Notes under the pieces: generated by a model
What the model saw: the letters and a program-made list of their open reading frames with translations, nothing else
Database searches by the model: none
What the model was told of the DNA's origin: nothing
Source: Neocallimastix lanati (nom. inval.)
Taxonomy: Eukaryota; Neocallimastigomycota; Neocallimastigomycetes; Neocallimastigales; Neocallimastigaceae
Assembly: GCA_016946835.1 (NCBI GenBank)
Contig: JACVTC010000366.1
Coordinates: 10,001-37,969 of the forward strand
Length of the DNA stretch: 27,969 nt
Direction of reading: 5' to 3'
Part shown: positions 990 to 27,969 of the stretch, piece by piece
Layout: every line of letters starts with the position of its first letter
How positions within the stretch are numbered: the first letter of the stretch is position 1
Translations under genes and position numbers: made by a program

Positions 990-3101
990 ATGAGAATGGC
1001 TTCTTCTTCAAATAGAACAATACATTTTGAGGAAGGAAAAATTTTAAGAAAACTTCCGGAAGATCATCCTTTGTCTTTCGCTTCCGAAATTCATCTGTTT
1101 TTCGTTATGAATGGCAAACAAGCAAATGAAAATCAAAGAAAGCTTTGCCCTATTTTCTGTGCTAAATGCAAAAAATCTCTAACAAGAACATGTACTAATA
1201 AAAAAAAAACTAAATACTACTATGTCCGTTGCGAGAGTTGTAACAATTCCATTTCTTGCTCCCTTTTGAAAGCTTTTCTTGAAGACCTATACGACCACGG
1301 TTGTATAGACTTTAAGAGAACAGGAGACTTTACCATGCTGGGTAAACAAATAAAAAGTGGGACAATTATTTTTAAAAGAAAAGACAATCCAGAATTGGAA
1401 GATCTGGAGATTGAATTTAAAAGTCCCAAAGACGATGATTTAATAAATGGTTTTCTATTAAAACCAGTAAATATTACCCCAGCTGGTTCAAAATATACTA
1501 TTTCTAGTATTAGAGAACTTTTTTATTCCCCTTATGACTATTATAAGTCAAATGAAATAAGAATGAAAAACCCAGTTGTTTATGAAAGCTCTACTCCTAG
1601 TTCAGAAACTGAAAATTTATTTGAAAGTATAATTTCTCAAGATTTTCTTGAAAATAATGATACTTTAGAAATGGATTCTGATACTCCATTAAATTCCGTT
1701 ACCACCCCCACTTCCAAAAGACCAAGAATTTCAAACCAGAGAGAAGAAGCGGAGGCTAATTTCAATAATTTTTCGAATTCCTATAGCTACCACAATGATT
1801 TCTATCGAATGACTATCGAAAACAATTATTTAAAGCAACAAATTATGAGCAAGGACTTATTAATCAACAAATTAATGGATGAAAATAGAATCCTAAAATT
1901 CAAAAGTAATAATGCCTCTTCGTCCGGTGAAAGGAATACTTTTTTGAATCCTGCTTACCCTAACCCATTGTCTTCTGCTGCCATTGCCACTGCCGATGCC
2001 GATGCCGATGCCGATGCCGCTGCTGTTGCTTCTGATGAAATTCTGATGATGGAGAACGGAAAATCAATTAATGATCAAGAGTTAATTGATCGAATTCAAA
2101 ATATTAATGAAATGGTAGCAAAAAAGCAAGATAATCCTGTCTACCATTCCGTTAATGAAATTTTATCTCAGGAAGAATTACCTGAGAACTTAAAAAACTT
2201 GAATAAAGATAAATCCTTCATCATGAAGTGCATTTTAGGATTGAAGACGAGCCCAAGAAGAAAAATAAATCCAAAAAATCTGGTTAAAGTTTATGCCAGA
2301 ATTGAGGCTCAGAAAACAAGATTTGTACGGTTTTTTTTAAAAAATCTTGGAATTCCTTCAAGCCAACTCAAAAATATTTCTTTTGTTGGCAAAAATATTT
2401 GTGAATTATTAGTTCACAAAAATTTTAAGGATCAATTAATTAAAGTTCTTCAATCCTGCGAAATTGAGATTTTAAATGATTTCGATCCAAGTGTATGCAC
2501 TAAAGAAGGAGAGGCAAAAAGTGAAGACATTAAGAGGACTGAACTTGCCTATTATAAAAGAATAACTGATATTATTAATAGGAGAGAAAGTCCTGAATAT
2601 GTTAAAGAATATTATAAGGAAGTGCTTCTGAATACTAAATTTCAATTAATACATGTTCCTTTTACCCCTAATAATATGAATAATACTAATTACAACAGAA
2701 ATAGGAACAACTTAGCAGAAGCAAGTAGTAGCAGCAGTAGCAGCAGCAACAACAATAATAATGAAGTTAATGGTCCTTACCGTGCCTATGATCACAATAG
2801 TTTTAGTCTTTATGAAAGCTATACAGGGGAAGATGAAGATGAAGTACTAACAGATGAAAATAGATACAGTACATATGATTCCGATACCGCTTCATCTGAA
2901 AATGAAGATGATATGGAAGCTACTGGTAATGAAATCATACATGAAGAGCAAATAAATAATGAAATAATGGAGGATAGTAATAAAAGAAACCCTATGGAAA
3001 CTGATACAAATGAAGATATTACTTTAAATAAAGTTAATATGGAAACTGATGATAAAGAAAACATTAATCTAATTAATAATAATATTATAAATAATATGGA
3101 T

Positions 3102-3141
<40 letters not shown>

Positions 3142-3153
3142 TAAATAATATGG

Positions 3154-3198
<45 letters not shown>

Positions 3199-3249
3199 TA
3201 AATAATATGGACATTAATAATAATAATAATAATAATATAAATAATATGG

Positions 3250-3285
<36 letters not shown>

Positions 3286-3377
3286 TAATCATGAATAATA
3301 TTATTCAAGGGGGGGTAAATTCTGATTTAAGTAATTATTCGGAACCAATTCAATCAAGACAATATAAATCTGAATAA
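990..3377 (+). CDS. LINE ORF1 (gag-like nucleic-acid-binding protein), 795 aa
   Basis: Probable ORF1 protein of the family 1 retroelement, expected to bind element RNA in an RNP. Visible layout: an N-terminal zinc-binding-like cysteine cluster (C57-x2-C60, C81-x2-C84, with further Cys at 53, 68 and 90); a charged helical stretch at about 271-305 that could form a coiled coil; a conserved domain at about 400-555 containing LKNISFVGKNICELLV; and a long acidic, Asn-rich C-terminal tail. The cysteine cluster and the ~400-555 domain both have clear counterparts in the protein at 14174-16387, which supports a real gene family. Two in-frame ATGs (990 and 996) are possible starts; the second has A at -3 and G at +4. 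Simple-sequence coding is prominent: alternating Ala-Asp near residue 335, Ser runs, and INNMDI plus poly-Asn repeats near the end. The reading frame overlaps that of ORF2 by 47 nt. Function is inferred from position and similarity to LINE architecture, not from a database match. Confidence 0.85.
3085..3290 (+). repeat. Coding minisatellite INNMDI plus poly-Asn in ORF1
   Basis: About four imperfect copies of an ATAAATAATATGGA(T/C)ATT core separated by AAT runs of different length. They encode INNMDI blocks joined by poly-asparagine. Run length varies between copies, as expected from replication slippage. The repeat stays in frame throughout ORF1. Confidence 0.9.
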
Positions 3378-4228
3378 TTACAATAGTAATAACCAAAATC
3401 ACATTAATTCTATTAATGTTGATTATAGGGTTATTTATAAAAATTTGAATGATATTAACTATATAACGTCTATTATACCTAACCTTTACGATGTTGAAAA
3501 TAATACGGTTGAAGTTAATCATCATTCCTCCCCCCTTACTACTAATATCCATTTCAATACTTTTGTAAATCAATGCAAAAATGCTAGTCCTCGCTTAAAT
3601 ATTTTATATGTAAATGCTAGAGGATTTTCAAAATATAAACAAAAGTATATTTTTAATTGCCTTCTATATATTTATGATATCATATTTATTAGTGAAACAT
3701 GGTTCATAAATTATATAGAATTATTTAAAAATCCACACCTATTAGCAAGTACTCCAATTAAAGAAAAAAGAGGTACTCGCTATAATAATGGAATTATGTG
3801 TTTTATAAATCCATTATTAAAAGAAAAAGTTTCCATATTACAAGTAACCGAATATTATATCCTATTAAAAATATTTAATAAAAATATAATGGCGGTTTAC
3901 TTTCCTCCATCTTTATCATCAATCCAATTTAAAAAAAGTATTTCTACTTTTTATTCTCCTGATATGATATTAGGAGATTTTAATATTTCTATTTCAATAT
4001 CTTCATTAAATAATAAAAAGGAAAAAGAAAAATTCTTTATATTGAAAGAATTTTTAAAAAAGTATTATTTACATTACAATGTTCCCTATAATCCAAAAAA
4101 TATAATAAATAAATGGGATCATTGCTTTTCTAAAAATAGTTTAAATACATTTTTATATCTTAATAACTCATCTTTTCCAACGGATCATCCTTCCTTAGAA
4201 GTAATGATCCCTTTAGGTAGTAGTAGTA

Positions 4229-4285
<57 letters not shown>

Positions 4286-4395
4286 TTAATAATAATATTA
4301 ATATTAGCAATAATATTAATATTAATCATAGTTATAGTTATAATAATATTAATGTTAGTAATACTATTAATATTAATAATAATTATAATTATAAT

Positions 4396-4452
<57 letters not shown>

Positions 4453-6427
4453 GTTAATGTTAATAATAGTTATAATAATATTAATGTTAGTAATGATATT
4501 AATATTATAAATAATTATAATAATATTAATGTTGATAATTTTAACCCTAATGATATTAATAATAATAGTAATAGTGATGATAATAACGATTATAGTTTAT
4601 TTAATAATTCTTTTAGTTTATTTAATAATTCTTATAGTTTATTTAACAATAGTTATAGTAATAATAATTTTAATAATAATAATAATAATATTAGTAATAA
4701 TAGTTTTAGTTTATTTAATACTTTTAATAATTCTTTTAGTGATGAAAATAATATTAATAATAACTCCAGTTTTAGTTTATTTAATAATTTTAATAATTCT
4801 TTTAATGATGAAAATAATATTAATAATAACTTTAGTTTTAGTTTATTTAATAGTTTTAATAATTCTTTTAATAATGATAATGATAATCATAATCATAATA
4901 ATAATTTTAATGATATTAATAATGATACTACTACTACAATTAAGAAAAGATATGTTATTAAAAATTTAAAACTTCCTTTAATTAGAAATTCTTTTTCAAA
5001 TAGAATTGATATATTTTCAAAAATAACCTTGCAAAATTCAAAAACTTTGATCAGTAAATTTCAACAATCTTCAGTGGAGGTAAAACAAAATGTTATAAAT
5101 TCCTTCGATGAATTAATTAGGGGATTTATACAAGATACGAGTTCTGATTTATTGGGTTCTTTATCAACAAATAAAAATGTGTACCAATCTCCCGATATAG
5201 ATAAGTATTTTTTTGAAATTGGAAAATCTATATCGAATAATGAAAAGTCAAAAGTCGACAGTACCAACGATGAATTAGAACAATATTCTAATTCAATTTC
5301 AGAAAAAAATCCAATTGAAGTAAATACGGTACTGAGACTTTTTAAAGAACATTTAAAAAACTCAAATGAGAACCCTCAATTTATTGAATCAGAATCGCCA
5401 AATTTGACGCCTCTTGAAGATGTTTTCAACTATTATAAAAAAATATATAAGTATAAAGCTGAAGAGTTTAATCCAAAGGATCTAAGAAGAAATTATTTGG
5501 GAAGCTACGACGAGGAATTTTATAAGTATTTAAACGAGGATAAAATTACCTTTAAAATTACAAAATTATCATCCAACAAAGCGTGTGGAATAGACGGGAT
5601 TCATTCGGTAATGTTAAAAACTCTTTTAGGAACAGACTTTCCAAAACTTTTGCTCTATCTTTATCAAATGTGTATAAAGTTTGGAATGACACCTAAAGGA
5701 TGGAATGAATCCGTTACCTTTCCTATTCCAAAAAAGAAGAAATCCTCGTATATCAAAGATTTTAGACCAATATCAATAACAAATACATTTCGTAAAGTAT
5801 TTGAAGGTCTATTATTAGATTATATGAATACGAAATTGAAAAAAGAACTTAAATTGTGTGGAAATCAAGCAGGATTTCGTTCAGGGTATTCCACACTAAC
5901 ACATGCTATAGCCTCAAATGAAACAGCTCAAAGTTATAATCCAAAACAACATCATGTTTTTTTGGATTTAAAGAAAGCCTATGATACCGTTCCAATTAAA
6001 ATGTTGATGAAGAAATTGGAAAAAAGAAATCTTCCCAAAGGTATCATTTCATTGATTGCTTCGTTATTTTCTGGATGTACTACAAGAATTATTGTAAATC
6101 AGGAAATAACGGATGAAATAGAAATACAAAGAGGCTTACTACAAGGTGCTATTTTATCACCTTTACTTTTTAATATTTTCATTGATGATTTAGCATCAGA
6201 ATTGACAGAAAGGTATCCAAATGATCCATTACCTCATTGTCTTTTCTATGCTGATGATATTAAATTAAATAATGAAAATAAAGATAATATGCAAAAAATG
6301 ATAGATATCTGTTTTAAATGGGCTGAAGAAAATGGAATGGAGTTTAACATTGAAAAGTCAGCTTTCCTTAGTGATCCTTATTTTAATAACAATAATGATA
6401 ATGATAATGATAATGATGATGATAATG

Positions 6428-6462
<35 letters not shown>

Positions 6463-7708
6463 GATAATGATAATGATAATGATGATGATAATGATGATGA
6501 TAATGATGATGATAATGATGATGATAATGATGATGATAATAACAACATAAATAATTATAATAATAATAATAACGTGGATGATCTTCCTTTTTATTTAGGT
6601 TCAGAAGAAAATAGACTTCCAAAAAAAGAAGAATACAAGTATTTGGGTTTTATTCATAGATGTTCTGGAATTAATTGGAAAGAACATTTAAATAATTCAG
6701 CAGAACGATCATTAAAATTGTTAAAGTCTCTGAATTATTATATCAATAAATGGTCGCCTTCAATTAAGTTATTCATATTTAGATCATTTATTAGACCAAT
6801 GATGGAACATTCTGCTTGTCTTTCCTTTTACTGGATGAAAAGTATTGAAGAATTTGAAAATAGAGAATTAAATTCCAAAGAACCCTTTGAAGAGAACCAT
6901 CTTTATAATAAAGTAATGAGACTAGGAGTTAAATGGATCTTAAATACTAAACGTTTTCGTATAGGCTTTTCTATTTTAGGATTACCTCCAACTTTAGAAA
7001 GACTCTATACATTATCATTAAAATTTAAAAGGCACATTAAAGAAATAGATGAAGATAATCCTTTAAATGTGGCCTTTTATATCAATAACTATAAAAGTAG
7101 GATCCCAAGAAATTCCTTTTTTTATAAAGTTATGGACTGGGATCATTTGTTCCATTTAAAATACTTTGGATTAAAAGATCCAGTGATACCAGACGACGAA
7201 GACCCGAATGATCCAGATATAGATCTTATTGGTTTGGATTCAAGAATAAAAGATCTTATTTATAAAAGTAACTTTGGAAGTTCAGCGTTAACAAGTTGTA
7301 TTCTTCCATTTGCAAGAGTGAAAAAGAAGACCGATAAAAATTATATTAAAGAAACTAATTCTTCTGATCAATGCATCTATATCAATGATCCTATAACAAG
7401 ATATAGAGCAATAAGATGGAGATTAAATACTTTTCTCTATAAAAAGATCTGTCCAATATGTCATAGGGAAATGAATAGAGCTCATATTCAGAAATGCAAA
7501 TTATTTATGCATGTTCCCTTTTGGCATTTTATATGCAACGATGACATCTATGCATATAAAAGTGAACTTCGAAAGTATGGTGATCATCCACCACCAAACT
7601 ATAATATACTAGACAGTATATTAAATAATAAAAATTATGATAAATTTAGAATTATCACCGACTTCCTTTATAAATTTTGGAATGAACTATCATCATCTAC
7701 TACTGCTG

Positions 7709-7740
<32 letters not shown>

Positions 7741-7782
7741 GCCAATAATACCATTAATAAAAATTATAACTTCAATACATAA
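3331..7782 (+). CDS. LINE ORF2: APE-type endonuclease + reverse transcriptase + CCHC knuckle
   Basis: Polymerase polyprotein of a non-LTR retrotransposon. Residues are numbered from the TTG codon at 3445. An AP-endonuclease-like domain spans about 50-255 (VNARGF, SETW, GDFN at 177-180, TDHPS at 246-250). An Asn/Ser/Phe-rich linker covers about 257-495. The reverse transcriptase starts near 690 and shows motif A LDLKKAYD (D841), motif B QGAILSPLLFN and motif C YADD (D937, D938). A (Asn-Asp)n insertion lies at about 979-1045, followed by the thumb-side YKYLGF. A C-terminal knuckle C-x2-C-x7-H-x3-C spans 1336-1351, and the protein ends in a poly-Thr tail. No RNase H domain was recognised. All catalytic motifs look intact, so the enzyme could be active. 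The frame is open from 3331, overlaps ORF1 by 47 nt in the +1 frame, and has no ATG until codon 118 (3796), inside the endonuclease. Expression therefore probably needs frameshifting, reinitiation or a non-AUG start; the start given is the edge of the open frame. Confidence 0.93.
4216..4945 (+). repeat. Asn-rich low-complexity linker between endonuclease and RT
   Basis: AGT and AAT triplet runs followed by longer imperfect coding repeats of the type SFSLFN-FNNSF-DENNINNN, repeated about three times at 4600-4900. The segment encodes a linker of about 240 residues between the endonuclease and RT regions and keeps frame, so it is tolerated by the protein or spliced around functionally. No intron signals are evident. 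Confidence 0.85.
6382..6575 (+). repeat. (AATGAT)n microsatellite inside the RT-coding region
   Basis: AAT and GAT triplets alternate for about 190 nt and encode Asn-Asp and Asn-Asp-Asp-Asp runs. The insertion sits between the NIEKSAFL segment (motif D region) and the YKYLGF thumb-side motif, a loop that is short in most LINE reverse transcriptases. The frame is preserved. Confidence 0.9.
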
Positions 7783-8252
7783 ACAAAACAAAACAACTTT
7801 TAGAATTATATAATTAAAAGGTAAATATAAATTTAATTAAATTTTTAAATTATTTCAAAAAAATTTTTTTTTGTTACACCAAAGTTTAATTATTTTTTTT
7901 TTTTAATTTTTTTTTTTTTTAAATTAAATTTTTTATAATTTTAATTATAATTAATAGTAAATTAAAAATTTTTTTATTATTTATTTATTAAAATTTTAAA
8001 TTTAAGAGGCCTTTTAAAATAATTCTTTTATTTTAAAGTGACCTTTATTTTTTATTTTTTATTTTTATTTCTTTAATTTTTTTTATAAAATAAATTATTA
8101 TATTTTTAATTATTTTATGAAAAATTAAAAATAAATTTTTTATATATTTAAATATATATTTATTTATTTAAATATTTTATTTAAAAAATATATAATAAAT
8201 TTATTAATTATTTTTTTTTTTTTATTTAAAGTCTTTACTTTTTTTTTTTTTT

Positions 8253-8270
8253 TTTAAAAGGCCTTTTAAA
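8253..8270. repeat. 18-bp perfect palindrome centred on GGCC
   Basis: TTTAAAAGGCCTTTTAAA is a perfect palindrome. A near copy with one mismatch lies at 8001-8018. Such GC-centred palindromes stand out in this A/T background, but no function can be assigned. Confidence 0.7.
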
Positions 8271-8547
8271 TTTTTTATTATTATTTTTTATTACTATTAT
8301 CAATAATTACTAACTATATTTTTTATTTATTTAATTTTATTATTAAATTATATTATAATTAAAATATTTTACAATTCAAATACAAAAAAAAAAAAAAAAA
8401 AAAAAAAAACAATACATATACAATATTTTCAACTTATTATCCAATAATTATAAAAAATTTCATTACAATGTATCAAAAAATAATTATTTTTTCAATATAA
8501 ATACATTCATTATTCATTCAAACAATAAAAAAAAAAAAAAAAATTTT

Positions 8548-8655
8548 AAATCCAATCAAAAATGCAAAAAAAAAAAAAAAAAAAAAAATAAAATCAATCA
8601 AAATTGCAAAAAAAAAAAAAATTTAAATCAATCAAAATTGTAAAAAAAAAAAAAA
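8548..8655 (+). repeat. Three copies of an A-rich ~36-bp repeat
   Basis: The core AATC(C/A)ATCAAAA(A/T)TG(C/T), followed by a run of A, occurs three times in a row with small changes. It is probably a slippage-derived minisatellite in the presumed 3' UTR. Confidence 0.65.
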
Positions 8656-9013
8656 ATGAACCAATAAATAGGACCAAAAAAAAAATTTCAATACAATCAA
8701 TATTTTTAATTTGAAGCCATACAAAAAATAAAAAAAATTCAATATAATCAAATATAATTAATGTTTAAAGCCATATAAAAAATAAAAAAATTTAATACAA
8801 TTATAAAATTTCAATTTTTTATCCAATAAAAATAAAAATGTATTAAAAAATATAAAAAATTTTTTTTCATCACATATATTATAATATAATAACAATATAT
8901 TTAAATACAAAAAAATAATACAAAAAAAATCTACTACAAAAAAAATTACAAAAAAAAAAAAAAAAAAAATAATAATAATAATAATTATTATTAAAAAAAA
9001 AAAATAATTTTAT

Positions 9014-9086
9014 TTCTCCTAATGTATAATCCAAAATACATTATGGTTTTTTCTCCTAATGTATAATCCAAAATACATTATGGTTT
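9014..9086 (+). repeat. 37-bp tandem duplication containing a hairpin
   Basis: Two near-identical units (9014-9050 and 9051-9086). Each contains AATGTAT and ATACATT as 7-bp inverted arms around an 8-nt loop. Confidence 0.85.
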
Positions 9087-9320
9087 ATTATTTAATTATT
9101 TTTTTTTTATTAAATAATTATATTTATTATAAATCTTTTTATATCATAACGGTAATTCATATTTATCTATTTATTAATTATTATATATATTTTGCGGTAC
9201 AAAAAAATTTATTTTTATTTTTTGTACTACATTATTTTTGATAACTCTAAATAATTATATTTTTTTTTATATTTTTATTTATTGTTATTAAAAAATTTTT
9301 TATTGACTTTTTTTTATTTA

Positions 9321-9394
9321 CACTTTTAAAATAATTATTAAAACTATTTTAAAAGAATAAAAACAAATAATGTTAAATAATTATTTTAAAAGTG
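9321..9394. repeat. 19-bp perfect inverted repeat, 36-nt spacer
   Basis: The arms at 9321-9339 and 9376-9394 are exact reverse complements, each beginning or ending with CACTTTTAAAATAA or its complement. They could form a stable stem in RNA. It may be a structural element of the 3' UTR or a tiny palindromic insertion; nothing decides between these. Confidence 0.8.
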
Positions 9395-9440
9395 CACTTT
9401 TTAATTCATTTAATTTTTAATATTTTATTTTTTTTTCTCT

Positions 9441-9539
9441 TATATAAAATAATTTAATAATTTTTTAATAAATAATTTTTATAATAATTTTTATTATTAT
9501 TTTATTATTTATTATTAAAGAATTAAATTATTTTATATA
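9441..9539. repeat. 17-bp perfect inverted repeat, 65-nt spacer
   Basis: The arms at 9441-9457 and 9523-9539 (TATATAAAATAATTTAA and its reverse complement) match exactly. The spacer is simple A/T sequence. Confidence 0.75.
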
Positions 9540-9742
9540 TAGTTTTTATTTAGTATAAAATATATTTTTTTTATTTATTTACATATTAGATTTTTATTAA
9601 TTATATAGTTTTATAATTTTTCCTTTCTTTATTTACCCTTTTAACTTTTACAATAGTTATCCTTTTATTTTACTTTTAATATAATTCTATAATTTTTATT
9701 ATAATTCTTCTTTTATATTTATATTTAAAAAATTTATATTAA

Positions 9743-9817
9743 AAATTTTTCTTGTGTTCCCTTTATATATAAATTATTATAAATTTTTCTTGTGTTCCCT
9801 TTATATATAAATTATTA
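9743..9817 (+). repeat. 38-bp tandem duplication
   Basis: Two nearly identical units starting at 9743 and 9781 share AAATTTTTCTTGTGTTCCC and the following AT stretch. It is a simple direct duplication within the presumed 3' UTR. Confidence 0.85.
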
Positions 9818-10200
9818 AAAGATTTATTTTTTTTTAATCTTTTTATTTAATTATATATAAATAACATAAGAATAATTATTATTTTATTTTTTATTTTCTT
9901 TTATTCTTTTTTTATTTTATTTTTATTTTTATCTTTTATAAATTATCTTTTATAAATTATCTCTATATATATATATCTTATTTTATTATGTCTTCATAAT
10001 AATTTAAATATTTATATAATACCTTTTATTTTTTTTCATTATAATAATTATATTTTTATAACCTTTATTATTCTTTCAACCTTACCTTTTTTTATTTATT
10101 TTATTTACTTTGGTTAATAATTACTTTACTTTATTTACCCTTTATTTTTTAATTATTAACTCTTATTTTATTATAGTTATTATCTTTAGATAATAATTAT

Positions 10201-10290
10201 AAACTTTTATCATTTTATATAATTTTATATAAATTTTTATCATTTTATATAATTTTATATAAACTTTTATCATTTTATATAATTTTATAT
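10201..10290 (+). repeat. 30-bp repeat, three tandem copies
   Basis: Three head-to-tail units beginning AAACTTTTATCATTTTATAT, with one C/T difference in the second. The same repeat begins the family 1 copy at 26841, so that copy is truncated inside this array. Confidence 0.9.
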
Positions 10291-11420
10291 TTTTATAATT
10301 ATATACTTTTTATTATTATCTTATATAATTATTTCTTTTAATAATTATATATACTTCTTTTCTTTTCTTGTATAATTATTTACTTTAAGTAATTATACAT
10401 TTTTTATTATCTTATATAATTATTTCTTTTAATAATTATATACTTTTATTTTATTTTATTATATAATTATATATCTTTTATAATTATATATTTTTTAATT
10501 TCTTATATAATTATTTTCTTTAAATAATTATATATACTTCTCTTTTTTCTTATATAATTATTTCTTTTAATAATTATATACTTTTTATTATCTTATATAA
10601 TTATATACCTTTTATAATTATATATTTTTATTATTTACTTATATAATTATTTATTTTAAATAATTATATACTTTCTTTATCATTATCTTATATAATTATT
10701 TGCTTAAAATAATTATATACTTTTTATTTACTTATATAATTATATATCTTTTATAATTATATACTTTTATTTACTTATATAATTATATATCTTTTATAAT
10801 TATATACTTTTATTTACTTATATAATTATTTATTTTTAAATAATTATATATTTTTTCATTATCTTATATAATTATTTCTTTTAATAGTTATATACTTTTT
10901 ACTTACTTATATAATTATATACTTTTTATAATTATATATTTTATTATTTATTTATATAATTATTTCTTTTAATAATTATATATTTTTATTATTATATTAT
11001 ATACTTATATATCTTTTATAATTATATATTTTTTTTTTCACTAATATAATTATTTGCTTATAATAATTATATATTTTATTCACTTATATAATTATTTGCT
11101 TATAATAATTATATATTTTATTATATTTTATTCACTTATATAATTATTTTCTTATAATTATATATTTTTATTATTATCTAATATAATTATTTATTTTAAT
11201 AATTATATTTTTTATTTTTTATTTTATTATATAATTATATTTCATTTATAATTATATATTTTATTCATTTATATAATTATTTATTTTAATAATTATATAA
11301 TTATATATTTTTATTATTACTTTTTATAGTTATATACTTAGATTAATATCTTATATAATACTTAGATTATTATCATATATAATTATTTACTTATAATAAT
11401 TATCTATTTTAGATATATTT
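10290..11420 (+). repeat. Array of about two dozen short A/T hairpins
   Basis: TATATAATTAT, a 5-9 nt T-rich loop and ATAATTATATA recur about every 45-60 bp, separated by short pyrimidine-rich spacers (often CTTTTTATT). Each unit could fold into an ~11-bp hairpin. The same array is present in the copy starting at 26841 with fewer units. This is consistent with unit gain and loss, and with the array belonging to the element. Confidence 0.85.
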
Positions 11421-11486
11421 ACTTATAGATATTAATACTTAATAATAGTTATTTTAATATTTCCTTTTAGAGATAGTCAAGATATT

Positions 11487-11506
11487 GAAATTCCTCATGG
11501 GATTTC
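11487..11506 (+). other. Conserved 3' UTR hairpin GAAATTCC-TCAT-GGGATTTC
   Basis: An 8-bp stem with one G-U pair in RNA and a TCAT loop. It is retained in the copies at about 17083-17102 and 27772-27791. It sits in the non-repetitive terminal part of the family 1 3' region and is a candidate recognition structure. Confidence 0.6.
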
Positions 11507-11590
11507 AGTATACGAATTTTAAGTTAGTTAAATTTTCATAAATTTTCTCTTAGATATAGTTAATTAGAATATTTTCCTTTTTTAGATAAT

Positions 11591-11609
11591 GGACATATTT
11601 AGTATATCC
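11591..11609 (+). other. Hairpin GGACATA-TTTAG-TATRTCC
   Basis: The copies at 17187-17205 and 27875-27893 form a perfect 7-bp stem with a TTTAG loop. This copy carries A for G in the 3' arm, giving one mismatch. It is a possible structural element of the 3' UTR. Confidence 0.55.
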
Positions 11610-11956
11610 GTTTTACTTTTTAATCAAAATTTTAAATACTTTAATTTACTTTTGATCAAAACTTTAATAACTTTAAATTTATTTTTGATCAAAATTTTAA
11701 TAACTTTAAATTTATATTTTTTATCAAACTTTAAATATTTTAATATTAAATAATTTTATTAGTTAGTTAAATCTTTATTAATTTTAACTTAGTAATAATA
11801 TTTAATATTTCAAATTACTTATTAATTCTTATAATAGTTATATTTAGTAAATACTTTAAATAATTTTTATATTATTATATTTTATTCTTGTAATTATTAT
11901 ATTTATCAAATACATGTAATACTTTGTAAATCTTAAATAAATAAAAGAATTTAAAA

Positions 11957-16776: not shown

Positions 16777-17552
16777 ATATAATTATTTATTTTAATAATT
16801 ATATTTTTTATTTTTTATTTTATTATATAATTATATTTCATTTATAATTATATATTTTATTCATTTATATAATTATTTATTTTAATAATTATATAATTAT
16901 ATATTTTTATTATTACTTTTTATAGTTATATACTTAGATTAATATCTTATATAATACTTAGATTATTATCATATATAATTATTTACTTATAATAATTATC
17001 TATTTTAGATATATTTACTTATAGATATTAATACTTAATAATAGTTATTTTAATATTTCCTTTTAGAGATAGTCAAGATATTGAAATTCCTCATGGGATT
17101 TCAGTATACGAATTTTAAGTTAGTTAAATTTTCATAAATTTTCTCTTAGATATAGTTAATTAGAATATTTTCCTTTTTTAGATAATGGACATATTTAGTA
17201 TGTCCGTTTTACTTTTTAATCAAAACTTTATATACTTTAATTTACTTTTGATCAAAACTTTAATAACTTTAAATTTATTTTTGATCAAAATTTTAATAAC
17301 TTTAAACTTATATTTTTTATCAAACTTTAAATATTTTAATATTAAATAATTTTATTAGTTAGTTAAATCTTTATTAATTTTAACTTAGTAATAATATTTA
17401 ATATTTCAAATTACTTATTAATTCTTATAATAGTTATATTTAGTAAATACTTTAAATAATTTTTATATTATTATATTTTATTCTTGTAATTATTATATTT
17501 ATCAAATACATGTAATACTTTGTAAATCTTAAATAAATAAAAGAATTTAAAA
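16777..17552 (+). mobile_element. Family 1 copy 2, 5'-truncated 3' end
   Basis: It matches 11181-11956 with no net indel and only scattered substitutions (for example G at 17200 where 11604 has A). It starts at the 5' base of one of the array hairpins, directly after the telomeric motif. It contains no coding sequence. Confidence 0.9.
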
Positions 17553-17567
17553 CCTAACCCTAACCCT
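17553..17567 (+). repeat. Telomeric junction, 15 nt
   Basis: CCTAACCCTAACCCT between the family 1 copy 2 tail and family 3 copy 2. It is two regular CCCTAA-type repeats. Confidence 0.9.
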
Positions 17568-19099
17568 AATAAAAGCGTTTGTTCTATTGTTTATTCTCAT
17601 TATTTATTTATTTTTAAATATTGTTTAAAATAATAGTTTTATAATTATATTGTTTTTATATTTGCATCATCCCTTTGATAAAACAAAATAATAAATAAAT
17701 TATTTTAAAAACAAATAAATTTTTATGAATCCGTTTTTTTATTTTATTTTATTTTATTAATATAAATAAATTATTTTAAATAAAAGAATAAATCCCTTTG
17801 TATTAAAATGTAAATTAAAAGTGGACCTATAATATTTTGTTTTATTTTATAATATTTTGTTTTATTTTTTTAATAATAAAGAAATTTAGAGTATAAATAT
17901 CTTTTGTTTTTTTTTAAAATATTTTTTCCGTATTAATGAGTATTCGTTTGCAATATTCATTATATCAAAATAAAATAAAATATATTTAAATAATTCGCCC
18001 AGAATTCAGGTTTTTTAACCTGTTTTCTGGAATGTCTTTAAACTCTTCCAGTTGACACTTTTGTTAGCTGGACTCTTTTTGATTTAAACTCCGGTTCTCA
18101 CTTTTGATTACTGGAATGTAATCTCTCCGGTTTCCTTTTGGAATGATTTTTTGGTTCCTTTTGGTTTTCAGGATTTCTGTTGTCTTGCTGAACTCTCCGG
18201 TTTACTCTTTGTTGGTTTGCTGGATTCTCTTTCGGTTATTCTTCTGGTTACTTGATTGGTTGTTGGATTCTCGTTTGCTTATTCTCCAGGGTACTCCTTT
18301 GATTCAGAGTTCTTGTCTTTTAGTTCTCTTGTCTATTCTTTGGGTTATTCTGGATTCTTTGGATCCCTTTTTTTGGTTCTCGGTTCTCCGACCTTACCTT
18401 CTTGGGATGTATTTTCTTTATTCTCTATGATTGTTATAATAATTAACAATACTTTTAATTAATTATTATTTATTTAATAATTAATTATTTTATTATTATA
18501 ATAATCTATTTAATAAACTTATGTATAATTGTTATTATTTATATAATAACAATATTTTTTAATCAAAATTGTTTGTTTATTATTTCTCATAATAATAATC
18601 TTCTATAAAATCATGTATTAATTATTATTATTTTCATAATAATAATAATTTTCTATTTTAAAATGTATTATTTATTAACTCATGTATTAATTATTATTTC
18701 TCATAATAATTATAAACTCATGTATTAATTATTATTTTTATAATAATATTAATTCTTAAAGATTGTATTAATTATTATTTTACAATAATAATTACTTAAT
18801 ATTTAAAGTTATTATTCGCTTGCTATAATTATTATTATTTTCTTAATAATAATTCTCTAGAATAGTATAGAATTCTTTGTTACAAATAGAATAGTTTAAA
18901 AATCTTAGAATAGATTTTAATATCTAAAATAAAAATCTTATTTTCTATTATTATTTGTTTAAAATAATAATAGTCGCTAGAATAGTTTAATAATTAAACT
19001 TCTTGAAAATCAATAATGATTTTTCTTAAATTATATATACATTAATAATGTATTAACTATTTTGATTAATTTTATTAAATAAAATTATAACGTTTAAAA
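17568..19099 (+). mobile_element. Family 3 copy 2, non-coding retroelement of 1.53 kb
   Basis: It aligns with 25294-26825 without net indel, and I found no difference by eye in the parts compared. The 5' ~450 nt, absent from copy 1, are A/T-rich and include a doubled ATAATATTTTGTTTTATTTT unit, then the hairpin CAGGTT-TTTT-AACCTG at 18007-18022. The pyrimidine-rich, less AT-rich core follows, then the hairpin-rich A/T tail. Whether 17568 is the true 5' end or a truncation cannot be decided from two copies. Confidence 0.85.
18007..18022 (+). other. Hairpin CAGGTT-TTTT-AACCTG at the truncation point of copy 1
   Basis: A perfect 6-bp stem with a TTTT loop, repeated at 25733-25748. Family 3 copy 1 begins at the base equivalent to 18024, one nucleotide beyond the 3' base of this stem, where a reverse transcriptase moving from the RNA 3' end would first meet it. 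Confidence 0.7.
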
Positions 19100-19115
19100 C
19101 CTAACCCCTAACCCT
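19100..19115 (+). repeat. Telomeric junction, 16 nt
   Basis: CCTAACCCCTAACCCT after the family 3 copy 2 tail, with one four-C repeat. The sequence to the right does not match any of the three families. Confidence 0.9.
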
Positions 19116-19276
19116 ATCTTGAAAATTTAGTTGTGAAGGGTTCAACATTTAATAAAATATACATTTAATTGATAAGCATCTTATAATATAATTTTAATTT
19201 GTTCATTAGTTATTTCAATAATTGTAAACCATTAAATCTCAACACTATTTTTTGAAACACACACACATACAAACAA

Positions 19277-19312
<36 letters not shown>

Positions 19313-19470
19313 AAAAAAACAAACAAAAAAAAAAAAATAAATTTTAATTTTTCATAAACAAGTAATATTGTATTTTCAAATAATATATTATTATATGCCT
19401 TTTTATTATATTATTTAAATAAAATTTGAATCTTTATTAATTTTTAAATAAAATATCTAAGTCTCAAATC

Positions 19471-19507
<37 letters not shown>

Positions 19508-20291
19508 ATAAATAAAAAAAATGAAATATATAATTTAGTTTCTTTTAAAATAATTATATTAGAACTATAAAAATATATCATTTAATTACTATAAAAAAGA
19601 AATTATTTGTAAAGTGAGTGACCTTTAATTATTTATTCTTTTTATTTTTGATTTAAAAAATATTTAATATTTAAATATATATAAAAAATATTATATTTAA
19701 AAAATTATTATTAATAATTAAGAAAAATTATTTAATTTTATTTATTTTTTATAAAAATTATTAAAATACATATTTTATGTTATTATAAAGTTTTGACATT
19801 ATTTTTTTTATAAAAAAGTACTTTTATATTTTCTTTTTTATCATTATAGGTTTATTTTATTATGTTTTGAATACTAAATGATTAATTAAATATTAATCTT
19901 CAAAATCCTTTATAAAAATATTGTTAGTAATAAATATTAATATACTAAATAAATATATATAATATTTAAAGCTTAATAATTCTTGAAATAAAAATGGTAG
20001 TACAATAAATAATATATCTTTTAAATAATATTTCTTAAATGTTTATTTTATTAAAGAATGAATATTTAATAATTAATATTTAAATAAATATTCATCTTAT
20101 TAATAATAATTATGAATAATAAAAAATAGTAATAATATTAAAAGTTATGTACCTCTTGAAATAAAAATAATAAAATAATAAATAACATTTTATTTTATTT
20201 ATTTACATTTATTACTTTTTTTATCAAAATATAATATAAATATTTATTGATTATTATTATTAATTTTACTTATATTTTATATATCCACTAA

Positions 20292-20918
20292 TTTCAATAA
20301 CCCAAAAAATTTCTTTGACCTTAAATCTTCTTTGACCCTAAATTTTTCAATAACCCAAAAAAATTTTTTGACCTAAAAATTTTTTGACTCTAAATTTTCT
20401 TTGACCCTAAATTTTTCAATAACCCAAAAAAATTTTTTGACCTAAAAAATTCTTTGACCCTAAATTTTTCAATAACCCAAAAAAATTCTTTGACCCTAAA
20501 TTTTTCAATAACCCAAAAAAATTTTTTGACCTAAAAAATTCTTTGACCCTAAATTTTTCAATAACCCAAAAAAATTTTTTGACCTAAAAAATTTTTGACC
20601 TAAAAAATTCTTTGACCCTAAATTTTTCAATAACCCAAAAAAATTCTTTGACCCTAAATTTTTCAATAACCCAAAAAAATTCTTTGACCCTAAATTTTTC
20701 AATAACCCAAAAAAATTCTTTGACCCTAAATTTTTCAATAACCCAAAAAAATTCTTTGACCCTAAATTTTTCAATAACCCAAAAAAATTCTTTGACCCTA
20801 AATTTTTCAATAACCCAAAAAAATTCTTTGACCCTAAATTTTTCAATAACCCAAAAAAATTCTTTGACCCTAAATTTTTCAATAACCCAAAAAAAATTTT
20901 TTTGACCTAAAAATTTCT
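20292..20918 (+). repeat. 36-bp minisatellite with telomere-like words
   Basis: About eight near-perfect tandem 36-bp units from about 20619 to 20900, preceded by shorter degenerate variants back to 20292. Each unit carries TTCAATAACCC and TTTGACCCTAAATTT, so CCCTAA and AACCC words recur. Because 36 is a multiple of three, both strands give open frames, which are artefacts. Confidence 0.9.
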
Positions 20919-21139
20919 AAAGAGAAAGTTGTATTTCAAAATGTATCATAAATTAAATCAAATATATATTTAATATTTTATTTAATTTTAAAGATATATT
21001 TTTATTTTTTTTATAAAATAAAATAATAATGTTTAGTATTAATTTTAAATATATATTTTATTTTTTTTATTTATAATAATTTATTCTTTTCCTTTTTTTT
21101 TAATAAAATAAAAAAAGAAATAAGTAAATAAAAATTATA

Positions 21140-21460
21140 TATAAATAAATAATAAATAATAAATAAAAAAATAAATAATAAATAATTAAATAAAAGTAAT
21201 AAATAAGTAATAAAAAATAAAAAATAATAAATAATAAATAATAAATAATAAATAATAAATAATAAATAATAAATGATAAATAATAAATAATAAATAATAA
21301 ATAATAAATAAATAAATAAATAATAAATAATAAATAATAAATAATAAATAAATAATAATTAAATAATTAAATAATTAAATAATAAATAATAAATAATAAA
21401 TAATAAATAATAAATAATAAATAATAAATAATAAATAAATAATTAAATAATAAATAAATG
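21140..21460 (+). repeat. AATAAAT-type microsatellite
   Basis: Long runs of TAAATAA and AATAAATA with occasional TTAAATAA variants. The strand is almost free of C and G. Confidence 0.85.
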
Positions 21461-22299
21461 CTACAAAAAAAAAAAATTAAATAAAAAAATAATAAAATGA
21501 AAAAATATATATATTTATAAATTATTTTAATTGTTGTTAATTTCTTATTAATTATTTTTATATAATTTATTCGTGGTTATGTACATTAGATATTATTTTA
21601 TTTTTTAATTATTTAATAATTTTTATAGTTAAAGATTTAAATATTTTTATAATCCTAAATGTAGATTAATTATATTGTGTTTAATAAAATACTATTTGAT
21701 TTTATTTTTTAGTATAAATAATATTTTTATTTATTTTTATTTTTTTTTATTCCTTAAAAAAATTAATCATCTAATGTACTCTAAAATAAACTATAATTAA
21801 ATATTGTTCATTAATATTTTATATTTATTTTTTATCTATATATTAATATAATAATTAAAAAAAAAAAAAAAAAGTTTTTTCTTTTCAGCTTTAAAATTAA
21901 ATTTTGATTAAAAAATTTAAAAAATTAAGTTTTTAAAAAAATGGCATATCCGAAATTTTATTTTATAATTAATTTAATATAAATCTATAATTAAATTAAA
22001 AATTTAAATTTTTTGGACCAATCGATTTTTAAATAGAAAAATTTTTCTACTTTGACAAATAAAATCCGCTTTTGCTAAGGGGGTGGTCATTTTTTTTGGT
22101 TTTTTATCTATGTGATGGGAAAAAAAAAAAAAAAAAAAAAAAAAATAAATAAAATAAAATTATATAATCATTAAAATTTTAAATAGCGAAATAAAATTTT
22201 TGATTGTGGGTTTTTTTTTGGGATAATAATTATTTTTGGTGCATAGATAATATTTATTTTTTTTTTTTTAATTTTTTTTTCTTATTGCAAGCTTTTTAC

Positions 22300-24180
22300 T
22301 TTGTAAAAAGTTTAACTTTAGAAAGATAAAAGAAATAAATATTTTTCTTTCTTTCTTTCTTTTTTTTTTTTATTAATTTTTTTTATTATTTTTATTTTAA
22401 ATTATTTTATTTCAAAAATAAAATAAAAATAAAAATAAAAAAAAAATTAAAAAATGATGAGAGGAAGAGGGGAAATTTTTTCTTTTTTTTTTTTCTACTT
22501 TAGAAAGATAAAAGAAATAAATATTTTTCTTTCTTTCTTTCTTTCTTTTTTTTTTTTTATTAATTTTTTTTATTATTTTTATTTTAAATTATTTTATTTC
22601 AAAAATAAAATAAAAATAAAAATAAAAAAAAAATTAAAAAATGATGAGAGGAAGAGGGGAAATTTTTTCTTTTTTTTTTTTTTTTTTTTTTCTATTTTAG
22701 AAAAATAAAAGAAATAAATATTTTTCTTTCTTTTTTTTTTTTTTTATTAATTTTTTTTATTATTTTTATTTTAAATTAATTTATTTTAAAAATAAAATAA
22801 AATAAAATAAAAATAAAAATAAAATTAAAAAATGATGAGAGGAAGAGGGGAAATTTTTTCTTTTTTTTTTCTACTTTAGAAAGATAAAAGAAATAAATAC
22901 TTTTCTTTCTTTCTTTCTTTTTTTTTTTTTATTAATTTTTTTTATTTTTATTTTAAATTATTTTATTTTAAAAATAAAATAAAATAAAAATAAAAAAAAA
23001 ATTAAAAAATGATGAAAGGAAGAGGGGAATTTTTTTCTTTTTTTTTTTCTACTTTAGAAAGATAAAAGAAATAAATATTTTTCTTTCTTTCTTTCTTTCT
23101 TTTTTTTTTTTTTTATTAATTTTTTTTATTATTTTTATTTTAAATTATTTTATTTTAAAAATAAAATAAAATAAAATAAAAATAAAAATAAAATTAAAAA
23201 ATGATGAGAGGAAGAGGGGAAATTTTTTCTTTTTTTTTTTCTACTTTAGAAAGATAAAAGAAATAAATATTTTTCTTTCTTTCTTTCTTTCTTTTTTTTT
23301 TTTTTATTAATTTTTTTTATTTTTATTTTAAATTATTTTATTTTAAAAATAAAATAAAATAAAAATAAAAAAAAATTAAAAAATGATGAGAGGAAGAGGG
23401 GAATTTTTTTCTTTTTTTTTTTTTCTACTTTAGAAAGATAAACGAAATAATATTTTTCTTTTTTCTTTCTTTTTTTTTTTTTATTTTTTTTTTATTTTTA
23501 TTTTAAATTATTTTTTAAAAAAAATAAATTAAATTAAAAAATGATGAAAGGAAGAGGGAAATTTTTTTCTTTTTTTTTTCTACTTTAGAAAGATAAAAGA
23601 AATAAATATTTTTTTTCTTTTTTTTTTTTTTATTAATTTTTTTATTATTTTTATTTTAAATTATTTTTAAAAAAAAAATAAAATAAAAATAAAAATAAAA
23701 AAAAATTAAAAAATGATGAAATGGAAGAAGGAAATTTTTTTTTTTTTATTTTAGAAAGATAAAAAGAAAAAATATTTTTCCTTCATTTTTATTTTAATTT
23801 TTTATTTTTATTTTTAATTATTTTTTTTAAAGAATAAAATAAAATAAAAATAAAAAAAAAAAGTGATGAGAGGGAGGAGATGAATTTTTTTTTCTTTTTT
23901 TAATTGTAAAAGGCTAAAATTTTAGAAAATTAAAAACAATAATATATATGTTTTTTATTTAAAAAAAAATAAGAAAGGAAGAAAGAAAGAAAGGAAAAAA
24001 AAATAAAAGAATATAAGAATTTTTTTTGTTATCCTTTTTTTGCTTATTAAAAGGCTAAATTTTAGAAAGATAGAAAAAATAATATTTTTATTATGGTTTT
24101 TTCTTTCTTTCATTTTTATTAAAAAAAAAAAAAATAAAATAAAAAAATTAAATAAAATAAAAAAAATTAATCATTATGGG
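22300..24180 (+). repeat. ~180-bp satellite with purine/pyrimidine tracts, 9-11 units
   Basis: The marker TTTAGAAAGATAAAAGAAATAAAT recurs at about 22317, 22498, 22695, 22874, 23053, 23244, 23429, 23584 and 23749, with decayed copies near 23931 and 24060. Each unit then has a CTTT run, a T tract, an A/T part, AATGATGAGAGGAAGAGGGG and another T tract. Spacing ranges from 155 to 197 because homopolymers vary. The units degenerate toward the right end. Confidence 0.9.
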
Positions 24181-24394
24181 AAGAAGTATTTTTTATTATA
24201 TGTAAATTAATTAATTTTTTTTCAAAAGTTATTTATTTAAAAAAATGTCATGAAATGAGTATAACTATCTTTTTTTTATTAAAGACCTTATAATTTTAAA
24301 TGTCTTAAATTTATTTTAAAAAAGTTTTACTTTAAAATATGGATAACCCATTTTTTATTTTTAAAAATAATTATTAAAAAAAAAAAATAATTAA

Positions 24395-24545
24395 AAGTTA
24401 TAAATTAAAGAATCATAAATAAATAATTATTAACGTTTTTTAAAATTATAAATTAAAGAATCATAAATAAATAATTATTAACGTTTATTAAAATTATAAA
24501 TTAAAGAATCATAAATAAATAATTATTAACGTTTATTAAAATTAT
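24395..24545 (+). repeat. 48-bp repeat, three tandem copies
   Basis: Three units containing AAATTAAAGAATCATAAAT and TTATTAACGTTT in direct order, nearly identical. Recent local amplification. Confidence 0.85.
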
Positions 24546-24917
24546 AAATAATAAAATAAATTATATAATAGATAATAAATATAATACCTAAATAATACCA
24601 AAATATCAATATATATAACTAATAATAAAATTTATACAAAATTTTCATTTTAATATGATAATTTTAATATTTATATTAATATAATATTGAATGGATTAAT
24701 GTTTAATTTATAAATAACAAATAGTATTTTTTTAATGCTATTTTCATTGTATTATAACTATAATTTATTAATATTTAATTATGAAATTTAATTAATTATT
24801 AATTTTTAAATAACTATATTAAAATATTTTATTTATTAGTTTTTGTTTAATATTTAAATTATTATTATTTATAAAACTTTTTTTTTTTTTTTTTTTTGAT
24901 TAGATTTTTATTACTAT

Positions 24918-24922
24918 ATAAC

Positions 24923-24966
<44 letters not shown>

Positions 24967-25150
24967 AAAAAAAAAGAAGCAAAGCAAAAAAAAAGAAAAA
25001 AAAAAAGAAAAAAAAAGAAGCAAAGCAAAAAAAAAGAAAAAAAAAAAGAAAAAAAAAGAAGCAAAGCAAAAAAAAAGAAAAAAAAAAAAAAAAAAAAAAA
25101 AAAGAAAAAAAAAGAAGCAAAGCAAAAAAAAATATATATATATATATATA
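24918..25150 (+). repeat. A-rich tract with four AAGCAAAGC blocks, then TA repeats
   Basis: Poly-A broken by single G residues, with AAGAAGCAAAGCAAAA recurring four times at about 40-55 bp spacing, followed by a TA dinucleotide run at 25133-25150. Low-complexity slippage product; the Lys-rich open frame across it is not a gene. Confidence 0.85.
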
Positions 25151-25293
25151 TTATTTTTTTTTTAAATTTATAAAATATGAAAAACTTATATAAAATTAAT
25201 TACTTTTAATTCAGTTTTAAATTTTAAAAAATAATTTTAATTTAGTTTTACGAAATTATTTGAAATTATTAATTAAAAATTTATATTATATAA

Positions 25294-26825
25294 AATAAAA
25301 GCGTTTGTTCTATTGTTTATTCTCATTATTTATTTATTTTTAAATATTGTTTAAAATAATAGTTTTATAATTATATTGTTTTTATATTTGCATCATCCCT
25401 TTGATAAAACAAAATAATAAATAAATTATTTTAAAAACAAATAAATTTTTATGAATCCGTTTTTTTATTTTATTTTATTTTATTAATATAAATAAATTAT
25501 TTTAAATAAAAGAATAAATCCCTTTGTATTAAAATGTAAATTAAAAGTGGACCTATAATATTTTGTTTTATTTTATAATATTTTGTTTTATTTTTTTAAT
25601 AATAAAGAAATTTAGAGTATAAATATCTTTTGTTTTTTTTTAAAATATTTTTTCCGTATTAATGAGTATTCGTTTGCAATATTCATTATATCAAAATAAA
25701 ATAAAATATATTTAAATAATTCGCCCAGAATTCAGGTTTTTTAACCTGTTTTCTGGAATGTCTTTAAACTCTTCCAGTTGACACTTTTGTTAGCTGGACT
25801 CTTTTTGATTTAAACTCCGGTTCTCACTTTTGATTACTGGAATGTAATCTCTCCGGTTTCCTTTTGGAATGATTTTTTGGTTCCTTTTGGTTTTCAGGAT
25901 TTCTGTTGTCTTGCTGAACTCTCCGGTTTACTCTTTGTTGGTTTGCTGGATTCTCTTTCGGTTATTCTTCTGGTTACTTGATTGGTTGTTGGATTCTCGT
26001 TTGCTTATTCTCCAGGGTACTCCTTTGATTCAGAGTTCTTGTCTTTTAGTTCTCTTGTCTATTCTTTGGGTTATTCTGGATTCTTTGGATCCCTTTTTTT
26101 GGTTCTCGGTTCTCCGACCTTACCTTCTTGGGATGTATTTTCTTTATTCTCTATGATTGTTATAATAATTAACAATACTTTTAATTAATTATTATTTATT
26201 TAATAATTAATTATTTTATTATTATAATAATCTATTTAATAAACTTATGTATAATTGTTATTATTTATATAATAACAATATTTTTTAATCAAAATTGTTT
26301 GTTTATTATTTCTCATAATAATAATCTTCTATAAAATCATGTATTAATTATTATTATTTTCATAATAATAATAATTTTCTATTTTAAAATGTATTATTTA
26401 TTAACTCATGTATTAATTATTATTTCTCATAATAATTATAAACTCATGTATTAATTATTATTTTTATAATAATATTAATTCTTAAAGATTGTATTAATTA
26501 TTATTTTACAATAATAATTACTTAATATTTAAAGTTATTATTCGCTTGCTATAATTATTATTATTTTCTTAATAATAATTCTCTAGAATAGTATAGAATT
26601 CTTTGTTACAAATAGAATAGTTTAAAAATCTTAGAATAGATTTTAATATCTAAAATAAAAATCTTATTTTCTATTATTATTTGTTTAAAATAATAATAGT
26701 CGCTAGAATAGTTTAATAATTAAACTTCTTGAAAATCAATAATGATTTTTCTTAAATTATATATACATTAATAATGTATTAACTATTTTGATTAATTTTA
26801 TTAAATAAAATTATAACGTTTAAAA
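25294..26825 (+). mobile_element. Family 3 copy 3
   Basis: Same length and sequence as 17568-19099 at constant offset 7726. Unlike copies 1 and 2 its left flank is not telomeric, so its 5' end may extend further left than the homology shows. The right end has the usual GTTTAAAA tail. Confidence 0.85.
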
Positions 26826-26840
26826 CCTAACCCTAACCCT
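26826..26840 (+). repeat. Telomeric junction, 15 nt
   Basis: CCTAACCCTAACCCT between family 3 copy 3 and the next family 1 copy, in the standard register. Confidence 0.9.
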
Positions 26841-27969
26841 TTATATAATTTTATATAAACTTTTATCATTTTATATAATTTTATATAAACTTTTATCATT
26901 TTATATAATTTTATATTTTTATAATTATATACTTTTTATTATTATCTTATATAATTATTTCTTTTAATAATTATATATACTTCTTTTCTTTTCTTGTATA
27001 ATTATTTACTTTAAGTAATTATACATTTTTTATTTTCTTATATAATTATTTCTTTTAATAATTATATACTTTTATTTTATTTTATTATATAATTATATAT
27101 CTTTTATAATTATATATTTTTTAATTTCTTATATAATTATTTTCTTTAAATAATTATATATACTTCTCTTTTTTCTTATATAATTATTTCTTTTAATAAT
27201 TATATACTTTTTATTATCTTATATAATTATATACCTTTTATAATTATATATTTTTATTATTTACTTATATAATTATTTATTTTAAATAATTATATACTTT
27301 TATTTACTTATATAATTATTTATTTTTAAATAATTATATACTTTTTATTTACTTATATAATTATATATCATTTATAATTATATACTTATATTTACTTATA
27401 TAATTATATATCTTTTATAATTATATACTATTATTTACTTATATAATTATTTATTTTTATATAATTATATATTTTATCATTATCTTATATAATTATTTAT
27501 TTTAATAGTTATATACTTTTTATTTACTTATATAATTAAATACTTTTTATAATTATATATTTTATTATTTATTTATATAATTATTTCTTTTAATAATTAT
27601 ATATTTTTATTATTTTATTATATAATTATATATCCTTTATAATTATATATTTTATTCACTTATATAATTATTTACTTATAATAATTATCTATTTTAGATA
27701 TATTTACTTATAGATATTAATACTTAATAATAGTTATTTTAATATTTCCTTTTAGAGATAGTCAAGATATTGAAATTCCTCATGGGATTTCAGTATATGA
27801 ATTTTAAGTTGTTAAATTTTCATAAATTTTCTCTTAGATATAGTTAATTAGAATATTTTCCTTTTTTAGATAATGGACATATTTAGTATGTCCGTTTTAC
27901 TTTTTAATCAAAACTTTAAATACTTTAATTTACTTTTGATCAAAACTTTAATAACTTTAAATTTATTTT
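26841..27969 (+). mobile_element. Family 1 copy 3, 5'-truncated and cut by the window end
   Basis: It corresponds to 10215 onward in copy 1: three 30-bp repeat units, the hairpin array, then the complex terminal part with both conserved hairpins. It is about 340 bp shorter than copy 1 over the same span, the difference lying in hairpin-array units. It runs off the window before its expected TTTAAAACCTAACCC end. Confidence 0.88.

Follow-up and report, generated by a model that had tools for sequence, protein, structure and literature searches.

The 27,969-nucleotide stretch of the Neocallimastix lanati genome analysed here (the window; bases 10001-37969 of contig C297, which is 37,969 bp long) carries a head-to-tail array of long interspersed nuclear elements (LINEs) separated by short telomeric repeats. 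We think it probable that these are LINE copies with an apurinic/apyrimidinic (APE)-type endonuclease that inserted successively at a chromosome end, by target-primed reverse transcription into very short telomeric tracts. An earlier note, made from the letters of the window, had described seven junctions of one structure and elements that all point the same way, and both observations hold: all seven junctions read TTTAAAA immediately followed by CCTAACCC on the plus strand, with a telomeric tract before the next element, and a single direction is kept throughout (Table 1). The note's upper bound of 25 nt for these tracts stands, and its lower bound of 9 nt has to be corrected to 8 nt. Three distinct 3' ends (types A, B and C) occur in the window, with TTTAAAA common to all. 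The octamer CCTAACCC is present 13 times, against 0.14 occurrences expected from shuffles; 12 of these lie inside the seven junction tracts, and the remaining one, at 1959, is inside open reading frame 1 (ORF1) and marks no junction.

The description of the elements as LINE-like is borne out by the A-type element at the left of the window, which encodes an ORF1 and an ORF2 with a highly significant reverse transcriptase (RT) domain. The endonuclease of ORF2 was not recognised by a Pfam search; a fold search with its predicted structure did recognise an APE fold, matching the endonucleases of LINE-1, TRAS1 and R1Bm. The endonuclease motifs GDFN and DH are kept in all five sequences compared (ORF2 and four relatives). 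From the motif set of restriction-enzyme-like (REL) endonucleases (CCHC, RHD/N, E, R/KPD) only CCHC was found in the same five sequences, two of which stop shortly past it. In a tree of 29 RTs, which included no named R1 reference, five gut-fungal-type RTs grouped together (100/100) on a long stem. The genome contains five full-length, stop-free copies of ORF2 (on C297, C497, C175, C507 and C191), each of which shows 100% in the identity column while the scores vary slightly, and further copies that are truncated or broken. ORF1 has no Pfam match, and neither does one relative, P0038. Downstream of ORF2 lies a long non-coding region, and the distance from ORF2 to the A end is 4.17-4.18 kb on the four contigs long enough to contain it (C297, C497, C507 and C175). 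Folding of the RNA 3' ends was no better than that of shuffles for any of the three types (z -0.68, -0.71 and 0.15).

We searched all 762 contigs (199 Mb) for such junctions. The 15-mer TTTAAAACCTAACCC occurs 169 times (97 forward, 72 reverse), and its reversed control not once on either strand; together with the shuffles of the window, this rules out a chance origin of the junctions. Type A ends followed by CCTAAC were found at 60 places, type B ends at 78 and type C ends at no fewer than 28, the last list possibly missing, owing to the search pattern, ends followed by T runs on contigs after C297. Altogether 116 junction contexts were read. Some 15-mer matches have no family 3' end (for example on C146, C156 and C67) and are probably due to chance. 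Where the exact 18-nt family ends were followed in stretches of more than 200 bases, CCTAA came next in 108 of 111 cases; the three exceptions are a poly(A) at C57:3626, TCTAACCC on C22 and CCTATT on C98. At the first of these, a B element closes with an A-rich tract of about 128 nt (C57:3627-3754) and no telomeric repeat, and another truncated B element follows; the element RNA may therefore be polyadenylated. When the A-end 18-mer was searched without requiring a telomere, some extra matches led into AT-rich DNA or, on several contigs, into ACTTCCTTAATG. The control of this search gave 11 forward and 3 reverse matches, which shows that the 18-mer is also matched by chance in such an AT-rich genome. 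An A-like 18-mer end is joined to a common non-telomeric ACTTCCTTAATGTA at C58:405350, C120:154308, C126:184267 and C264:36574, representing either another repeat or an older duplicated copy.

The junctions are strongly oriented near chromosome ends. At 13 ends of contigs of at least 100 kb, 41 junctions lie no more than 20 kb away, and all 41 turn the 5' end of the element toward the end concerned; the proportion is 12 of 15 at 20-100 kb and 7 of 14 beyond 100 kb. This count covers 177 places, 11 of which fall outside types A, B and C and include some decayed ends; without these the near-end figure is 40 of 40. It leaves out C58:341721, C22:29549, C98:144947 and C98:224836, which lack an exact TTTAAAACCTAAC, and takes in C200:53485. 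Of the 20 contigs that have a terminal telomeric tract in the first 100 of 150 listed places, 16 carry junctions, and 58 of the 59 junctions on those 16 contigs have the predicted polarity, the sole exception (C296:10476) lying in the other part of its contig. Where a contig holds two or more junctions, a single orientation was found in 32 of 35 cases. Since the copies are partly allelic or duplicated, these counts overstate independence. The clustering at contig ends in one orientation, for which the earlier note had proposed a genome-wide test, is present. The note named as refuting evidence a dispersal over internal chromosome regions in both orientations with ordinary target-site duplications; a minority of junctions does lie deep inside contigs in both orientations, and these look like old relics. 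Its suggestion that retroelements account for a large share of the chromosome end fits many ends, though not all of them.

Three near-identical decayed A ends (C128:110141, C168:171621 and C141:122428), each followed by CCTAACCCTAA, lie at least 25 kb from contig ends, with stop-ridden RT pieces nearby on C128 and C168. These are old relics, like the published relics of MoTeR elements.

A LINE of the ordinary kind, with CCTAACCC as part of its own 3' end and inserting regardless of telomeres, is a very unlikely explanation, even though some junctions show barely more than CCTAACC(C) before other DNA (for example C239:10516 and C721). The near-end polarity speaks against such an element, as does the octamer itself, which is often continued by telomeric repeat of varying C number; moreover, at one B end poly(A) takes the place of the telomere.

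The window itself was read by the earlier note as a left chromosome end. At its left end, contig C157 (1.57 Mb) carries the same array (99.83% identity over 10,011 alignment columns), and the next junction there, about 1.4 kb past the point matching the last element of the window, is an A end. The left side of the window, however, is no contig end, as the window begins at base 10001 of C297; positions C297:5001-10000 read N, so that the 5' end of the window's A-type element is not seen. The chromosome end is better visible on C157, C57, C126 and C269.

Contig ends carry irregular (CCCTAA/CCCCTAA)n tracts, which measure 80-512 bp in the ten cases measured; these lengths are minima because the contig ends there. 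The distinct tracts between elements are far shorter: 87 of 91 are at most 31 nt long, with one repeat (7-9 nt) in 40 and two (13-16 nt) in 33, whereas random insertion into the ten terminal tracts would place only 12% at or below 31 nt. Long telomeric tracts also occur inside contigs, at C269:29854-30029, directly behind a B end, and at C212:1486026-1486319, about 27 kb from the contig end.

These short tracts raise the alternative of a nick-free extension of the end, as in HeT-A/TART, in which an eroded or critically short 3' end primes reverse transcription directly and terminal erosion accounts for part of the 5' truncation seen in the older element. We regard this as rather unlikely overall, but several observations agree with it. 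Besides the tract lengths, the polarity is that of end addition, and the 5' joins look like healed ends. In the 55 of 91 joins where a longer relative passed our filters, telomere and element overlap by at least 1 nt in 47 and by at least 2 nt in 26; simulated joins (n=1,368) reach these values in 52% and 22% (binomial 2.5e-7 for at least 1 nt, with relatedness ignored). The telomeric match ends at CCC, CCCT, CCCTA or CCCTAA in 54 of the 55, a count biased upward by a parsing that requires CC. Such a pattern is expected if telomerase adds GGG to cDNA ends that have a short match, but a fixed second-strand cut would produce it too.

Two chromosome ends show one site with and without an element. 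The sequences of C126 and C269 agree to 99.956% across 9,084 bp, beginning precisely at the boundary between CCTAACCCC and TAGCG. Past this boundary C269 continues directly into its terminal tract (441 bp in total), and C126 into an 836-bp B element followed by 80 bp of tract. What sets the two ends apart is a single terminal element, placed exactly at the telomere boundary; gain and loss fit alike. That the extra element is the outermost one again suits end extension. Such extension has more difficulty with the presence of an endonuclease whose motifs are conserved, and with the constancy of the register in 108 of 111 ends, which is not obviously expected from free telomerase-made ends.

We favour successive target-primed insertion, for which the following course can be proposed. 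For each copy the TTAGGG strand would likely serve as primer, at one fixed position (..GGGTTAGG-3') within a very short tract, the nick of the element endonuclease setting the register. Insertion may prefer eroded tracts or the innermost repeats, and the 5' end of the copy (the 3' end of the cDNA) might be re-capped by telomerase through an overlap of 1-3 nt. Non-coding and ORF1-only copies could be mobilised in trans by intact elements, and blocks would then spread among ends by recombination between arrays.

Recombination or break-induced replication between telomeric tracts has been proposed for the growth of MoTeR arrays (PMC8381367). That it accounts for most of the growth here, with few true insertions, seems improbable to us. 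Identical blocks on several contigs and a repeated pair of B units on C177 do bear its mark; recombination, however, copies junctions and makes no new ones, so that the 91 distinct junction sequences count against it, and truncation points and element orders vary as well. In addition, copies that share one 5' start have differing telomeric leads. Short ORF1-bearing copies on C126 (allele C269), C177, C239 and C296, all with a C end, and on C175, with a B end, start within about 4 nt of the place corresponding to window position 14120, and the telomeric lead differs in each. Short A copies have their start at TTTTCTCC, where a copy of the 37-bp repeat lies, and their leads are of at least four kinds (on C57; on C126 and C253, with the same lead; a second one in C253; on C666); a diverged copy is on C97. 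These recurrent 5' starts look like transcript starts, and we therefore predict, from the sequence, an internal promoter; the recurrent start of the A copies could also be favoured by the tandem repeat itself.

Several kinds of element take part in the arrays. The C-type element of the window encodes a 737-aa ORF1-like protein, whose identity to the A-type ORF1 is about 29-35% in two blocks. The genome holds 14 full-length, stop-free copies of it (100% in the identity column; 13 of 14 at the top score). No RT was found in a 2.65-kb form of the C element; the C126 copy of this form matches the C element of the window, in its 3' part, at 99.96% identity. A second RT family, with 49% identity to the ORF2 family, has five stop-free copies (one each on C126, C175 and C299, and two on C191). 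About 1.4 kb behind the RT, each of the five has an ORF1-like frame, broken in the C126 copy, and a B or C end comes next (C126:31451-38369, C175:28104-35018, C299:19132-26045, and C191:17097-24012 and 38930-45845). The gene order would be the reverse of the usual ORF1-ORF2 order; among the matches listed no junction was seen between the RT and this frame, the intervening DNA itself being unread.

Evidence for telomerase, which the earlier note had proposed to look for, was also obtained. Two neighbouring stretches on C106 pass the curated cut-off for the telomerase RNA-binding domain (PF12009; E 2.0e-4 and 4.3e-4), and none of 14 control genomes matched. One of the stretches has two internal stop codons, and its stop-bearing part may be an intron. 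A frame nearby resembles, by eye, what we take to be motif A of telomerase reverse transcriptase (TERT). It is conceivable, if less likely than not, that the telomere of N. lanati has two components, the repeats made by telomerase and a specialised set of APE-type LINEs, which would be attracted to critically short ends and restore them. This would be a fungal counterpart of HeT-A/TART that arose independently and in which telomerase is kept. The set would then comprise autonomous ORF1-ORF2 elements, RT elements whose ORF1-like gene follows the RT, copies with ORF1 only, and passengers without coding capacity.

Tandem repeats of 36 bp and 187 bp occur in the 7.7-kb B element of the window, at 20307-20911 and 22315-23540; variable tandem repeats comparable to these are reported for FoTeR (PMC12857005). 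C191 holds a related non-coding B element. Next to two telomeric arrays lie RNA polymerase frames with Rpb1 domains, one of them also weakly matching a DNA ligase, and a family-B DNA polymerase; as a gene set these resemble the DNA of a giant virus adjacent to a chromosome end.

Table 1. Features of the array (window positions unless a contig is named)
Feature	Position	Strand	Remark
ORF1, A-type element	990..3377	+	795 aa
ORF2, A-type element	3445..7782	+	1445 aa counted from first TTG (putative start)
APE/EEP-type endonuclease domain of ORF2	3580..4218	+	about residues 46-258; AlphaFold model and fold search
Reverse transcriptase domain of ORF2	5725..6654	+	residues 761-1070; Pfam RVT_1, E 3.3e-34
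CCHC motif	7450..7497	+	close to ORF2 C terminus
Non-coding 3' region, A-type	7783..11956	+	4174 nt; ends TTTAAAA; 9.2% GC, GC skew -0.45
Two 37-bp repeats	9013..9086	+	TAATGTAT/ATACATTA inverted repeat; recurrent start of short A elements
Telomeric tract	11957..11981	+	25 nt
B-type element	11982..13057	+	1076 nt; 5' truncated
Telomeric tract	13058..13065	+	8 nt
B-type element	13066..13101	+	final 36 nt only
Telomeric tract	13102..13109	+	8 nt
C-type element	13110..16766	+	3657 nt
Recurrent start place of short copies	14120..14173	+	about 54-55 nt before ORF1C ATG
ORF1-like protein of C-type element	14174..16387	+	737 aa
Telomeric tract	16767..16775	+	9 nt
A-type element	16776..17552	+	777 nt; 5' truncated
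Telomeric tract	17553..17566	+	14 nt
B-type element	17567..19099	+	1533 nt; recurrent 5' start AGCGTTTG a few nt in
Telomeric tract	19100..19114	+	15 nt
B-type element	19115..26825	+	7711 nt; no RT match listed; 36-bp and 187-bp tandem repeats
Telomeric tract	26826..26839	+	14 nt
5' portion of further element	26840..27969	+	ended by contig end
Frame of polymerase gene set	C131:5018-7462	+	
Frame of polymerase gene set	C197:4763-6259	+	
Frame of polymerase gene set	C197:6929-9766	-	

The earlier note had offered HeT-A/TART-like addition or TRAS-like insertion as models. With telomeric repeats at the ends and between copies, and with a TERT RNA-binding domain, a Drosophila-type replacement of telomerase repeats is ruled out, and in this N. 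lanati differs from HeT-A/TART/TAHRE. Likenesses to these elements are the polarity, the 5' truncation and, in the A type only, the long 3' region, here with a strand bias (GC skew -0.45). HeT-A is not known to encode an RT, and the ORF1-only copies of N. lanati are comparable to it. The recurrent starts of the short A copies would suggest a promoter in the 3' region, as in the 3' untranslated region (UTR) of HeT-A/TART/TAHRE. Long 3' UTRs are described for HeT-A/TART/TAHRE and for the Gil elements of Giardia, the latter in same-direction arrays (PMC5537684); the Drosophila telomeric elements are also treated in PMC4700185. GilM/GilT, and Zepp of Chlorella, share the telomeric location, a comparison made by description only.

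TRAS and SART, telomeric LINEs of the R1 clade in Bombyx and Tribolium, have two ORFs, an APE endonuclease and the telomeric repeat as target (PMC5537684, PMC4700185, PMC10088271), and the N. lanati elements resemble them in the endonuclease type, the two ORFs, the fixed position in the telomeric repeat and the coexistence with telomeric repeats. They differ in the gut-fungus host, the long 3' region of the A type, the mostly one or two repeats between elements, and the 3' join: in SART1 poly(A) is joined to AGG (PMC7265360), whereas here TTTAAAA meets the telomere in all but three of the 111 ends and poly(A) was seen in just one.

With MoTeR1/2 and FoTeR the elements share fungal hosts and TTAGGG telomeres. 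In MoTeR arrays the copies follow one another head to tail, each with its 5' end on the side of the chromosome end and separated from the next by a short tract, and shortened relatives occur (PMC7367193); the same arrangement is found in N. lanati. MoTeR and FoTeR, of Pyricularia and Fusarium, nevertheless belong to the CRE clade and carry a C-terminal REL endonuclease (PMC7367193, PMC12857005); ORF2 of N. lanati has an N-terminal APE fold, and no REL motif set was found in it or in four relatives. An APE-type lineage in a phylum that diverged early would point to a further origin of telomere targeting among fungi, with a different enzyme and the same polarity.

The main text of the PacBio-based N. 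lanati genome paper (PMC8561657) contains no word beginning with telomer or retrotranspos, and no description of telomeric APE-type LINEs of gut fungi appeared among the listed titles and abstract openings of open-access papers, a scope that excludes subscription papers and bioRxiv. The arrays lend themselves to a natural test of the way in which telomerase and LINEs coexist at one chromosome end. Since stubs of one or two repeats are so sharply preferred, rescue of short telomeres by retroelements becomes a directly testable idea. On the features tested, the N. lanati elements lie outside both the MoTeR/FoTeR group and the Drosophila set and yet work like them; they would be a separate and apparently undescribed instance in which mobile elements contribute to the building of chromosome ends.

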